From Alphaproteobacteria bacterium (GTDB lineage: Bacteria; Pseudomonadota; Alphaproteobacteria; Puniceispirillales; Puniceispirillaceae): a stretch of DNA of 64,000 nucleotides. A model generated the notes under the pieces. That model worked only from the letters and a program-made list of their open reading frames with translations, did no database searches and was not told the origin of the DNA. The stretch is from assembly GCA_016779005.1 (NCBI GenBank), contig JADHOL010000002.1:62001-126000 (forward strand), written 5' to 3'. The position numbers were made by a program, and so were the translations under genes. Of this stretch, positions 17,746 through 63,812 are shown one piece after another (positions within the stretch are counted from its first letter, which is position 1; the number at the start of each line of letters is the position of its first letter).

Positions 17746-19015
17746 TACAGAAAACAGCTTATCTGTTGGGGATATAATCGAACGTCTTACCTCTGAGGCA
17801 AAACAGGCCCAGTTGGTTTTGGGTCAATCCTCTCATTCAGCAAGATGTTCAGCATTAAAAAAGATAGCTGAGAGAATTAGAACTTCACGCGAACAGATTA
17901 TGGATGCGAATCAGCAGGATTTATCTAATGCAAATGATAAACAGCTTGCAGCTTCTGTGATTGATAGATTAACGCTCAATGCTGATAGAATAGAGGCTAT
18001 GGCCACTGGCGTCGAGGCAATTGCAGATATGTCAGATCCACTTGGAAAATCGCTGGCAAAATGGGAAGTTCCATCTGGTCTTGAAATCGAACGTGTTTCA
18101 ACAGCGCTTGGCGTTATTGGCATTATTTATGAATCGCGCCCAAACGTAACTGTGGATGCAGGTGCGCTATGTCTTAAATCTGGAAATGCTGCGATATTAC
18201 GTGGCGGATCTGATTCGTTTCATTCAAGCTTGCTGCTAACAGAACTTATTCAAGACTGTTTGGAGGCGGTAGGCCTTCCACGCACCGCCGTGCAAATGAT
18301 TCCAACCTCTGATAGGCAGGCTGTAAATGAATTATTGCAGGCTGCTGGCAAAATAGATGTAATCGTGCCAAGAGGCGGTAAATCATTGGTAAGTTTAGTT
18401 CAAGAAAAAGCACGTGTACCTGTTTTTGCCCACCTTGAGGGTATCTGCCATATTTATGTAACACAAAGCGCAGATGCCGACATGGCGCGAGATGTCACGC
18501 TTAATGCAAAAATGCGCAGAACCGGAATTTGTGGTGCTTGTGAGACGCTGCTTATTGACCGCTCAGTCGCTCATAGCTTGTTACCTGAGATTGCCTCTGC
18601 TCTTTTAGAGGCTGGGTGTGAGCTTCGCGGTGATGAAGAAGCAAGACAGATAGTACCTGCAATGCATAAGGCGAGCGAGGAAGACTGGCATACAGAATAT
18701 TTAGATGCAATTTTATCTATTAAAATAGTTGATGGTTTTGAAGATGCAATTTCGCATATCTCTAACTATAGCTCTGGTCATACAGAATCTATCATCACCC
18801 AGGATAGCGACCTTATAAACCGATTTTTATCAGAGGTTGATAGTGCAATTGTAATGGCAAATGCCTCTACTCAATTTGCAGATGGGGGTGAATTTGGCAT
18901 GGGCGCGGAATTAGGAATTGCAACCGGTAAGCTTCATGCAAGAGGGCCTGTAGGTGCAGAACAGCTTACTAGTTTTAAGTATAATGTAAGAGGGCATGGT
19001 GAAACTCGGAAATAA
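17729..19015 (+). CDS. proA: Gamma-glutamyl phosphate reductase
   Basis: This 428-residue member of the aldehyde-dehydrogenase superfamily reduces gamma-glutamyl phosphate to glutamate semialdehyde with NADPH. Diagnostic segments are GVIGIIYESRPNVTVDAGALCLKSGN near residues 130-152, VPRGGKSLV near 212 and the catalytic cysteine in MRRTGICGACETLLID near 260. VDSAIVMANASTQFADGGEFGMGAELGIAT lies near the C-terminus. It overlaps proB at its start and nadD at its end (20 bases). Confidence 0.97.
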   Translation: MRLPNNTENSLSVGDIIERLTSEAKQAQLVLGQSSHSARCSALKKIAERIRTSREQIMDANQQDLSNANDKQLAASVIDRLTLNADRIEAMATGVEAIADMSDPLGKSLAKWEVPSGLEIERVSTALGVIGIIYESRPNVTVDAGALCLKSGNAAILRGGSDSFHSSLLLTELIQDCLEAVGLPRTAVQMIPTSDRQAVNELLQAAGKIDVIVPRGGKSLVSLVQEKARVPVFAHLEGICHIYVTQSADADMARDVTLNAKMRRTGICGACETLLIDRSVAHSLLPEIASALLEAGCELRGDEEARQIVPAMHKASEEDWHTEYLDAILSIKIVDGFEDAISHISNYSSGHTESIITQDSDLINRFLSEVDSAIVMANASTQFADGGEFGMGAELGIATGKLHARGPVGAEQLTSFKYNVRGHGETRK

Positions 19016-19640
19016 ACGCACCCACCTATCACGCCTTTCACGTCATTTAAGAAAACAACGTATTGGATTAATGGGTGGCTCTTTTAATCCAGCTCACACA
19101 GCACATGAAGAAATTGCTGAAGTTGCCCGAAAACAGGCTAAGCTAAAAGAAGTTTGGTGGCTTGTCAGTCCACAAAACCCGTTAAAGCATGATGCGCAGA
19201 TGATGCCGTTCCATGAGCGGCTACAAGGTGCTATAAGGCTCACTTGGAACAAGCCTTGGCTTAAGGTGCTTGATTATGAATATCAGCTTCAAAAAGCACA
19301 CTGTTTTCCTGATAATCGAGCATCAACGGTCATAACGCTATCTTATTTACGCAAGCAATTTCCAGCGACTTCTTTTGTCTGGATAATGGGCGCTGATAAT
19401 CTGGTACAATTTATGCGCTGGCAAAATGCCCCAAAAATCGCAAGGCTTGTTGATATATGCGTCATGAACAGGCCTGAATTCACCTATAAGGCACTTGCAA
19501 GCAGAAGTATTGTCGCGCTTGGCACAAGAGTTTCCACCTACAATCTAGGAAGCAGCCCTAAACGCAAATGGGCCTATTCCTTTTCAACTAGGAATACACT
19601 TTCAGCGACAAAAATTAGGCAAAATAAAGCAGATGAATAG
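18996..19640 (+). CDS. nadD: Nicotinate-nucleotide adenylyltransferase
   Basis: This 214-residue nucleotidyltransferase adenylates nicotinate mononucleotide to deamido-NAD. The N-terminal nucleotide-binding motif is GLMGGSFNPAHTAHEE near residues 25-40, containing the family HxGH-like histidines. WLVSPQNPLK near 60 and FVWIMGADNLVQFMRWQ near 125 are the substrate-binding blocks, and STRNTLSATKIRQ near the end is the ISSTxIR equivalent. The ATG at 18996 lies within proA. A later start would remove basic residues but not the motif. It is usually followed by rsfS, as here. Confidence 0.94.
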   Translation: MVKLGNKRTHLSRLSRHLRKQRIGLMGGSFNPAHTAHEEIAEVARKQAKLKEVWWLVSPQNPLKHDAQMMPFHERLQGAIRLTWNKPWLKVLDYEYQLQKAHCFPDNRASTVITLSYLRKQFPATSFVWIMGADNLVQFMRWQNAPKIARLVDICVMNRPEFTYKALASRSIVALGTRVSTYNLGSSPKRKWAYSFSTRNTLSATKIRQNKADE

Positions 19641-19701
19641 CTTGTTTTAGTTGGAGTTGTCGAAGCTACGAAAAAACGCTATATAGATGTCAGGACTTAA
19701 T

Positions 19702-19708
19702 AAAGGAG
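19702..19708 (+). promoter_or_regulatory. Ribosome-binding site that selects the rsfS start
   Basis: AAAGGAG at 19702-19708 is a near-perfect anti-16S match. An ATG at 19709 follows it with no spacing and reads only five codons before TAA, so it cannot be the rsfS start. The in-frame ATT at 19716 is 7 bases after the site, the ideal spacing. The rsfS frame has a TAA at 19701-19703, so the start must lie between there and the first TTG at 19761. Confidence 0.7.
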
Positions 19709-19715
19709 ATGGACT

Positions 19716-20093
19716 ATTACCATTAAAAAAGAGCCGCTTTCACCCGACCAGCTAAAACAGTTGGTTCTGCAATCATTAGATGATGATAAGGGTGAGGATA
19801 TCTTATCTATCCCTCTTGGGACAAACTCCTCAATCGCTGATTATATTGTTATCGCATCTGGTACTTCTTCACGAAAAGTTCTTGCGATGGCTCAAAATCT
19901 GGAAATAAAATTAAAAAAAGCAGGCGTTACAATATTAGGCCGTGAAGGTGCATCGCAAGCTGACTGGGTATTACTGGATGCGTGCGATGTTATTGTTCAT
20001 TTATTCAAGCCTGAGGTTAGAGAATTTTATGGGCTTGAGCGCATGTGGTCTCCTTCTGCTGATGAAGAAACCATTCAGGTTTCAGTAGACTAG
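19716..20093 (+). CDS. rsfS: Ribosomal silencing factor RsfS, probable AUU start
   Basis: This protein binds L14 on the 50S subunit and blocks subunit joining under starvation. The body is typical: LVLQSLDDDKGEDILSIPL, DYIVIASGTSSRK, GREGASQADWVLLDACDVIVHLF and REFYGLERMW. A gene finder would start at TTG 19761, which lacks a Shine-Dalgarno and drops the usual LSPDQLKQ helix. Extending upstream in frame adds ITIKKEPLSPDQLKQ, and the ATT at 19716 sits 7 bases after AAAGGAG. I therefore annotate an AUU start giving 125 residues. An undetected one-base sequencing indel that would restore the ATG at 19709 is the main alternative. Confidence 0.88.
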   Translation: MTIKKEPLSPDQLKQLVLQSLDDDKGEDILSIPLGTNSSIADYIVIASGTSSRKVLAMAQNLEIKLKKAGVTILGREGASQADWVLLDACDVIVHLFKPEVREFYGLERMWSPSADEETIQVSVD

Positions 20094-20143: not shown

Positions 20144-20614
20144 ATGCGCTTGAGTATTATTGCAATCGGCAAACAAAAAAATGATGCTACCTATGAGCTA
20201 ACTCAAACCTATTTTAAACGATTACCCTTTGCCGGAGACATTATTGAAATTGAGCGCTCGCAGGCATCAGGCCCAAAGCGCGCAATAGAAGAAAGTGATA
20301 AAATTAGAGCCTTTCTTCAAATGAAAGCCATCAAAGGCCATCGTGTGATTGCATTAGATAAATCGGGTACAGATACAAGCTCTGAGCAATTAGCAGAATT
20401 AATACGTAACTGGCGTGATGATGGTGTGGCTGGTTGCTATTTCGCTATAGGCGGTGCTGATGGACATACGCAAACACTTCTTAATTCGGCTAATATATGT
20501 CTAAGGTTTGGTAGGGCTACCTGGCCTCATTTACTGTTTCGTGCCATGCTCGCAGAGCAATTATACCGGGCTGAGATGATTTTAAAGGATCATCCCTATC
20601 ATAATGGCCACTAA
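20144..20614 (+). CDS. rlmH: 23S rRNA pseudouridine-1915 N3-methyltransferase
   Basis: This 156-residue SPOUT-class enzyme methylates pseudouridine 1915 in helix 69 of 23S rRNA. It begins MRLSIIAIGKQKNDATYELT. The SAM-binding trefoil knot carries VIALDKSGTDTSSEQLAE near residues 70-86, CYFAIGGADGHTQT near 105-118 and WPHLLFRAMLAEQLYRAEMILKDHPYHNGH at the C-terminus. Length is exactly as expected. It follows rsfS by 50 bases, the conserved order in many Gram-negatives. Confidence 0.97.
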   Translation: MRLSIIAIGKQKNDATYELTQTYFKRLPFAGDIIEIERSQASGPKRAIEESDKIRAFLQMKAIKGHRVIALDKSGTDTSSEQLAELIRNWRDDGVAGCYFAIGGADGHTQTLLNSANICLRFGRATWPHLLFRAMLAEQLYRAEMILKDHPYHNGH

Positions 20615-60874: not shown

Positions 60875-61519
60875 TTAATATAATGGCTTCCCGAATAATT
60901 TATTTGCTAATTCTCGTCCATAAATTTCATTTTGCAAGGTAACTTTAGTGTTAACCCCCAAGGTATCTATCACTATCCAACCTCGCAAATTCATATCATT
61001 CGGCTCGAACAACAAAATTAATTCGCCGGCATTCTCACCTGCATCTTTACGCAAACTTATTTCAACCAGACCATCAGATATTCGGCTGGTTGTGCTAAAA
61101 TCATCTCCAATCAAGGATACTGTATCCTTCAATAAGGGTGCAAAAGGGGTTTCAGAAATTGGATAATTTACTGCCTTTTTATCAGCCGGCTCATCTATAA
61201 TAAGCCATCTTCGTGTGGTTATTAGATTATACGGATCGTCAAGATCATACTCCAAACGCATTTGAAAGGGTCTGCGAAAATATAAAGTGCCAACAGCATA
61301 GCTCCCGTCAGAAGAAATCTGGGTGAAGTCCGCTTGCAATGTTGAAATATTCTGTATCGTCTTTTCAGCGCGCGCAATAAGCTCTGCGTCTGATGTATTT
61401 GCATTAGAATAATTTGGCGAAATTATAATGGCCAAAAGCAGGAATAAGCCCGCAAGATATGGCTTGCTTATCGTGCTTTCATTGCAGATATGTCTGATTG
61501 TGATATTACACCTCATCAT
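60875..61519 (-). CDS. lolA: Outer-membrane lipoprotein carrier LolA
   Basis: This 214-residue periplasmic chaperone shuttles lipoproteins to the outer membrane. A signal peptide (hydrophobic core [11 protein letters not shown] near residues 24-34) ends near the Ala-Asn-Thr at about 41. The mature part shows [34 protein letters not shown], the LolA opening strand pattern. [35 protein letters not shown] follows near the C-terminus. The predicted start overlaps the end of ftsK by 14 bases; ftsK-lolA-xth is a common alphaproteobacterial order. Confidence 0.93.
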
Positions 61520-63812
61520 TACTTACCAGAACCTCTCTTTTTCCAACATGATTAGACTTGCTGATAATTCCAGCTGTTTCCATTTCTTCAATAAGCGTTG
61601 CCGCTCGATTATATCCAATTCGAAGGTGGCGTTGAACAAAACTTGTTGAAGCGCGCTGTTCTCGGATAACCAAGGCGACTGCTTGGTCATATAGACTTTC
61701 CTCACCGCTTGGGGCGGCACCTGTGCCATCCCCTGAGCTAGCGTTACCTTCGGTTATATCTTCTGTGACTTTCTCGTCATATTCAGGCTCTCCTTGTTGA
61801 CGCAAATAAGAGGCAACCTGTTCTACCTCATCATCATCAACAAAGGGTCCGTGAATTCTGGTAACCCTTCCGCCGCCTTCCATATATAGCATATCCCCTT
61901 TGCCAAGTAATTGCTCTGCACCTTGTTCGCCTAAGATAGTTCGGCTATCAATTCGTGATGTCACTTGAAATGAAATACGGGTTGGAAAATTGGCTTTTAT
62001 AGTACCTGTAATTACATCTACAGATGGGCGCTGGGTTGCCATAATAACATGAATTCCAGCAGCACGTGCCATTTGTGCTAATCTTTGAACTGCTGCTTCT
62101 ATCTCTTTACCAGCAACCAGCATCAGATCTGCTACCTCGTCAATCACCACAACAATGTAGGGAAGTGGGGTAAGGTCAAGCATATCTTCTTCAAATACAG
62201 GGCTACCTGTTTCTTGATCAAACCCTGTTTGAACCCTGCGGGAAATCACCTCCCCCTTAGAGCGCGCTAATGCAAGGCGCTCATTATAACTTGTGATATT
62301 ACGAACGCCTATCTTGGCCATATTGCGATAACGGCCCTCCATTTCTCTTACCGCCCATTTAAGTGCCATAATAGCCTTTGCAGGATCTGTAACCACAGGC
62401 GTTAATAACTGCGGAATTCCGTCATATACAGATAGCTCAAGCATTTTTGGATCTATCATAATTAACCGGCAACTATCAGGCGTATGTTTATATAATAGTG
62501 ATAATATCATCGCATTGATACCGACCGATTTTCCAGAACCGGTGGTACCAGCCACTAGCAAATGGGGCATTTTAGCCAGATCCACAATGATAGGCGCGCC
62601 AGCAATATCCATCCCAAGAGCAACTGGCAGATCTGCTTTATGGTTTGTCCACTCATCAGAATCCAATAAATCGCGAAGTAATACTATTTGACGTATATCG
62701 TTTGGCAGCTCGATGCCGATAACATTCTGTCCTGGCACAACAGCAACCCTGACAGCAAGTGCGGACATAGACCTTGCAATATCATCGGCAAGGGCAATTA
62801 CACGCTGTGATTTAATTCCTGGTGCTGGCTCTAGATCATATCTTGTTACAACAGGGCCATGCCGGATATCGGTGATGTCTCCCTGTACTCTAAAATCAGA
62901 TAATACAGTTTCAAGCTGTTCCGCATTTTCCTCCAATAATCCCTGAGGCGGTGCAGAATTCGATTTTGTCGGTGGTTTTAGCAAATAAGATGGTGGCAGC
63001 TGAAAACTACCATCGCCATCAAATTCAAATACGGCCTGTGACGTGTTTGTCTTTTTGGGTTTAGCTTTAGTCTTAGTACGCAGACTTGGCTGTTTCTTGG
63101 CAGAGGGCGTTTGTGTTTTTTTAAAAGCACTATTTGAGGGCTTTGCAATAGCTGTTTGGGATAAGTCCAATATCTTTTGTGATTTATCACGCTTTATTAC
63201 GGATAGAAGCGCCAAAATAGGCATAAGGAGTAATTTGCCTAACCGATATACCCAGCCTGCTTCTTTTTTGCCAAGAGCTGTTGACCAGACATACAGTAAA
63301 ATGCCTATTACCGCTAATAACAGCGCTAATGCCTGTTTACTATCAATTCCCAACTGGTCTAAACGAGTGCCCATAATAGGCAATAATGCCTGAAACAGCA
63401 CCGATGCAATGCCTCTGAAATCAAATCCTAATCCGTAAAAACCAGCAGACAAAAATTGAATAGAAAGTGGTAGCAAGCATAATCGCCAAATCCACAATGA
63501 TACCCCGCGATGGGCAAATATTCTAACCCCCCAAACAAACAAGGATACTGGAAATAATAGTGCAAAAAAACCAAACCAGGAGACAAGCTGATTTGATAAT
63601 AACGCCCCAAAGGATCCAAACCAATTCTTTATCTCACTCTCGGATGAGACATGCGGTGCTGGGTCTAGTGCAGACGCACTGGCAAGAATAATACCAAGAC
63701 AGACGGCGCCCAAAACAAGCAAAATTCCAATAAGCTCTTTTATTCGGCGAAAGAAAAATAGCCGAAGCCTATCAGACATTACTTTGCCTCTAGATTTTGT
63801 CTGTTCACTCAT
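61506..63812 (-). CDS. ftsK: DNA translocase FtsK
   Basis: This septal DNA pump segregates the terminus and activates Xer recombination. Four N-terminal membrane helices lie within about the first 170 residues. A short basic linker ([24 protein letters not shown]) follows, much shorter than in E. coli. The motor has Walker [18 protein letters not shown], Walker [13 protein letters not shown] and [24 protein letters not shown] gamma winged helix with [19 protein letters not shown] lies at the end. The frame opens at a TTG at 63875. The ATG at 63812 overlaps the upstream stop as ATGAGTGA and is chosen (768 residues); the ATG at 63779 is an alternative with a good Shine-Dalgarno. Confidence 0.97.

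Follow-up and report, generated by a model that had tools for sequence, protein, structure and literature searches.

A predicted AUU start codon for rsfS in a SAR116 bacterium and near-cognate rsfS starts across the Alphaproteobacteria

Genes with IF3-discriminated start codons

The standard case of a start codon discriminated against by IF3 is that of E. coli infC, the gene for IF3, which begins at AUU and is subject to IF3 autocontrol. An AUU start also limits the translation of E. coli pcnB, a start for which class-wide conservation is not known to us. More generally, starts outside the set ATG, GTG and TTG are repressed by IF3, as is that of Streptomyces sigR, which begins at GTC (PMC5472188). 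IF3-discriminated starts are thus already known from infC, pcnB and sigR and from certain genes of staphylococci (PMC13009471); the known cases are few, and mostly single genes in narrow groups.

Here we describe rsfS of the Alphaproteobacteria, whose product binds uL14 and blocks subunit joining, chiefly in stationary-phase cells and following a nutrient downshift (PMC3400551). It resembles E. coli infC in its putative near-cognate start behind a Shine-Dalgarno sequence, in encoding a subunit-separating factor, and in the IF3-rejected class of its codon, but RsfS selects no start codons, so that control would come from IF3 and would not be autocontrol. With pcnB it would share a translation-limiting AUU start, on a different protein. 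Like sigR, it would be a gene other than infC brought under IF3 by a noncanonical start; unlike in our case, the codon there is GTC, the organism is a Streptomyces, and IF3 dependence has been shown experimentally (PMC5472188). S. aureus cvfC1 (AUU) and ccpN (AUA) are similar in that their near-cognate starts are conserved and lie behind strong Shine-Dalgarno sequences, and differ in that the cvfC1 start is described as conserved among staphylococci, the products are not ribosome factors, and the starts were mapped by Ribo-Ret (PMC13009471). We found no prior report of an unusual rsfS start in the open-access literature searched, which leaves out most subscription journals and preprints. With its start conserved over a large part of the class, rsfS thus appears to be a new member of the IF3-discriminated genes, though an earlier mention is not excluded.

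The rsfS locus and its start in the SAR116 order

The window, the whole 64,000-nucleotide stretch analyzed, comes from a 1.97 Mb genome of the SAR116 group in 48 contigs, and carries proB, proA, nadD, rsfS and rlmH in that order; the last three were named by family models and the first two identified from their translations. On the forward strand, nadD (18996-19640; TIGR00482, 115 bits, above cut-off) precedes rsfS, and rlmH (20144-20614; RlmH models up to 145 bits, under their strict cut-offs) follows it, an order matching that of E. coli except for cobC. The gene between them (19716-20093, forward strand, 125 codons and TAG) is rsfS, the ribosome silencing factor: read from ATT, its product scores 104.7 bits with PF02410 and 109.2 bits with TIGR00090, against a cut-off of 56.9 and over model positions 2-99 of 99, which satisfies the requirement of family membership.

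The initial annotation proposed that this gene begins at AUU. All of the coordinates behind that proposal were verified: the frame is closed upstream by TAA at 19701-19703, the Shine-Dalgarno sequence AAAGGAG lies at 19702-19708, and after a 7-base spacer (19709-19715) comes an in-frame ATT at 19716-19718, all on the forward strand. From the stop onward the frame reads AGG AGA TGG ACT ATT ACC ATT AAA AAA GAG CCG CTT TCA CCC GAC CAG. The Shine-Dalgarno sequence scores 8.5, the joint strongest near the starts of long ORFs in the window, and is kept as (A)GGAG in relatives. The first in-frame ATG, GTG or TTG is the TTG at 19761-19763 (codon 16), as had also been noted, and the next is at codon 58. 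Translation from AUU 19716, positioned by the strong Shine-Dalgarno sequence, is strongly supported by these features and by the comparisons below, in the absence of translation data; presumably the codon is read as methionine by initiator tRNA. The predicted start lies outside AUG, GUG and UUG, and so meets the codon requirement for an IF3-discriminated gene. One other noncanonical start was considered in the window, an ATC after a Shine-Dalgarno sequence in the minus-strand ORF at 60878-61522, and was dismissed as ordinary, with an in-frame ATG just upstream.

Next, we compared rsfS 5' regions in 58 species of the SAR116 order, 49 of them in families f1-f3 and nine in family f4. The codon after the Shine-Dalgarno sequence is ATT, ATC or ATA (ATH), and never ATG, in all 49 species of f1-f3, one of which (G044) has an extra in-frame TTG between the Shine-Dalgarno sequence and the ATH codon. 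Fifteen of these loci have an in-frame stop at most three codons upstream of ATH (for example TGA ACT ATT, TAG ACA ATT, TAA CCC ATT, TAG ACC ATC and TAA AAA ATA), making a start further upstream impossible there. In 26 species no ATG, GTG or TTG occurs from the upstream stop until about 14 codons past ATT, and in three congeners (G001, G004 and G005) none occurs before codon 58, a start at which would lose half of the domain. ATT is invariant within the genus, being found in nine further species of it. The alignment of relatives thus bears out the AUU proposal, and the putative near-cognate start qualifies as conserved between species. Family f4 is the only one with ATG, in all nine species (L128-L131, L312 and L314-L317), eight of which have no notable Shine-Dalgarno sequence; a near-cognate rsfS start is therefore not indispensable. 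Our guess is that f4 may have swapped one route to low initiation for another. As a side observation, the bin G006 contains two rsfS genes, L117 (G006:C40) and L121 (G006:C321), one with ATT and one with ATA; it is probably a mixed bin (5% contamination reported).

These comparisons also bear on the two ways in which a conventional start might be recovered. We consider it very improbable that the true start is TTG 19761, giving a protein without the LSPDQLKQ segment; it is the first conventional codon in the frame, but it has no Shine-Dalgarno sequence and the corresponding codon is not TTG in most congeners, three of which, as described above, lack any canonical codon upstream of codon 58. 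The stretch that such a start would remove moreover evolves as coding sequence: within the genus, codons 7-15, which encode LSPDQLKQ, show 62, 36 and 122 pairwise differences at codon positions 1, 2 and 3, while the stretch upstream of rsfS is aperiodic (169, 190 and 171). Even less credible is a sequencing or assembly error, in which an indel conceals an in-frame ATG at 19709, an outcome that the initial annotation had named as one that would refute it. That ATG directly follows the Shine-Dalgarno sequence, though in a different frame, and its spacing to it is zero. In many relatives its position is ATA within an in-frame TAA, TAG or TGA (e.g. AGGAGATAGACAATT) and ATT is kept, which excludes the indel, and ATT also recurs in assemblies made independently, among them four genomes in a single contig (G015, G022, G037 and G043). 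The five-codon ORF from this ATG (19709-19726, forward strand) was separately considered as a conserved leader and rejected, as its conservation is absent in the SAR116 order.

Near-cognate rsfS starts across the class

To assess the class as a whole, we drew 144 alphaproteobacterial genomes, 136 with rsfS, nearly all of which were read. We used a codon-blind test that counts in-frame codons 4-9 bases past the strongest Shine-Dalgarno sequence, with expectations from the composition of the same stretches. Among 84 rsfS genes with strong sites, the observed (expected) counts were 20 (2.3) for ATA, 20 (3.5) for CTG, 10 (2.1) for ATT, 8 (3.1) for ATC and 9 (3.3) for ATG. Gene by gene, 54 were classified as near-cognate (ATA, CTG, ATT, ATC or ACG), 13 as canonical, 3 as ambiguous and 66 as undecided; GTG and TTG were found at the Shine-Dalgarno sequence in only two and three genes, respectively, against the 54 near-cognate ones. 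No canonical codon at all precedes the core in 17 of the 136 genes. Among named organisms, ATA is seen in Skermanella and Telmatospirillum, and ATA or ATC in several MAGs of the Rhodospirillales. Placed on a quickly built protein tree, which also includes genes from the SAR116 order and from outside the Alphaproteobacteria, near-cognate and canonical starts require 12 changes, indicating that the two states have repeatedly replaced each other. Taken as a trait of the class, this suggests that rsfS starts on AUU, AUC, AUA, CUG and in a few cases ACG, and is largely off AUG, GUG and UUG.

The CTG genes of the Rhodobacterales were not counted as clean support, since their Shine-Dalgarno sequence is also followed by an ATG in another frame; the class totals nevertheless include some of them. 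In Yoonia, Loktanella and Octadecabacter, the rsfS start region reads AAGGAGGACAATGNNCTGTCT or a near variant, in which CTG is in frame and conserved and the preceding ATG is out of frame. CTG without a competing ATG occurs in several other families (e.g. L154, L157, L169, L188 and L278). In Rhodobacteraceae the out-of-frame ATG behind the strong Shine-Dalgarno sequence opens an 18-22 codon ORF (L073, L075, L079, L081, L083, L085, L086, L088-L093, L095-L101, L103 and L110). In most species this ORF stops on an in-frame rsfS ATG or no more than two bases from it. It is possible that it is a translationally coupled leader peptide, a genuine rival to the CTG start there.

Controls did not reproduce the pattern, so that rsfS is distinct from the genes around it. 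Outside the class, in 40 genomes, no rsfS lacked a canonical codon and near-cognate enrichment was absent; the E. coli gene starts with TTG. A canonical codon was always available in rlmH (97 genes) and nadD (32 genes, SAR116 order), controls that mainly test for the presence of such a codon, with few strong Shine-Dalgarno sites among them. Two further controls, nadD outside the order (three genes) and proA, were left unused because of their small size. When the codon-blind test was applied to other ORFs, ATG was found 9 times (2.1 expected) and ATA twice (1.9) for all long ORFs of the window, ATG 6 times (1.6) for other ORFs at the class loci, and ATG 32 times (5.6) for other ORFs at named alphaproteobacterial loci; consistent near-cognate enrichment was not found at either of these two sets of loci. 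For neighbor ORFs in the SAR116 order ATG was not enriched (4 observed, 4.6 expected), and the test therefore has low power there. In the same neighbor ORFs (L032-L066), CTG was seen 6 times at strong Shine-Dalgarno sites against 2.9 expected, possibly by chance or because of another near-cognate gene.

Possible control of rsfS by IF3

We then looked at IF3 and its gene in this group. The host encodes one IF3 gene (PF05198, 107 bits, complete reading frame), fulfilling the requirement that IF3 be present in the organism. An infC start at ATA behind GGAG is apparent in 12 of the 12 genomes read, those of the window and of 11 relatives (L290 around 1456 in the window genome, L321, L325, L329-L332, L336, L338-L340 and L343); only right-strand loci were included, leaving out the half of infC loci on the other strand. 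G048, the one f4 genome among them, still has ATA after GGAG at infC, although rsfS in f4 has ATG.

The most likely mechanism can be inferred from these observations. IF3 on the 30S subunit would destabilize initiation at the near-cognate rsfS codons, keeping the yield of RsfS low; this yield would drop with an ample supply of IF3 per 30S subunit and rise when IF3 is short. RsfS on uL14 of the 50S subunit blocks joining, and the level of an anti-association factor on the 50S side would in this way be set by the activity of a factor on the 30S side. The infC gene, apparently on AUA here, would fall under the same IF3 check. We have good though incomplete confidence in the joint explanation that combines the AUU start, the class-wide near-cognate trait and an IF3-sensitive, low-yield initiation. 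That selection has kept alphaproteobacterial rsfS on IF3-rejected starts as a cross-subunit circuit, with more silencing when IF3 falls below 30S subunits, is a proposal on which we are evenly divided.

The main competitor accepts the AUU start without regulation by IF3: the near-cognate codon would merely hold RsfS, a protein harmful when overproduced, at a low and unvarying yield, for which the strong Shine-Dalgarno sequence would compensate. We think this unlikely, though by no means negligible. In reporters tested in S. aureus, near-cognate starts gave about 10% of the AUG yield, and for some genes this depended little on conditions (PMC13009471); family f4, with its ATG lacking a strong Shine-Dalgarno sequence, looks as though weakness can be reached by another route. 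Weakness alone, however, predicts the use of GUG and UUG as well, and both are rare at alphaproteobacterial rsfS Shine-Dalgarno sequences. We favor IF3-sensitive initiation because the rsfS codons are the ones that IF3 rejects and GUG and UUG are very scarce. Support for the IF3 link, which the initial annotation had put forward as inference, is indirect, coming from this choice of codons over the IF3-tolerated GUG and UUG and from the apparently similar infC start; IF3 control of rsfS, its direction and its cellular use are inferred, as there are no data on IF3 dependence.

One practical consequence is that gene callers restricted to ATG, GTG and TTG, as was the ORF listing program applied to this window, will misplace the rsfS start in many alphaproteobacterial genomes. 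For the biology of the class, the comparisons point to a ribosome-shutdown factor that keeps a near-cognate start over much of the Alphaproteobacteria while its codon drifts among AUU, AUC, AUA and CUG, and seldom to AUG. IF3 control of ribosome silencing becomes directly testable in laboratory species, and the conserved rsfS start suggests a conserved control through which the condition of the initiation machinery bears on ribosome shutdown.
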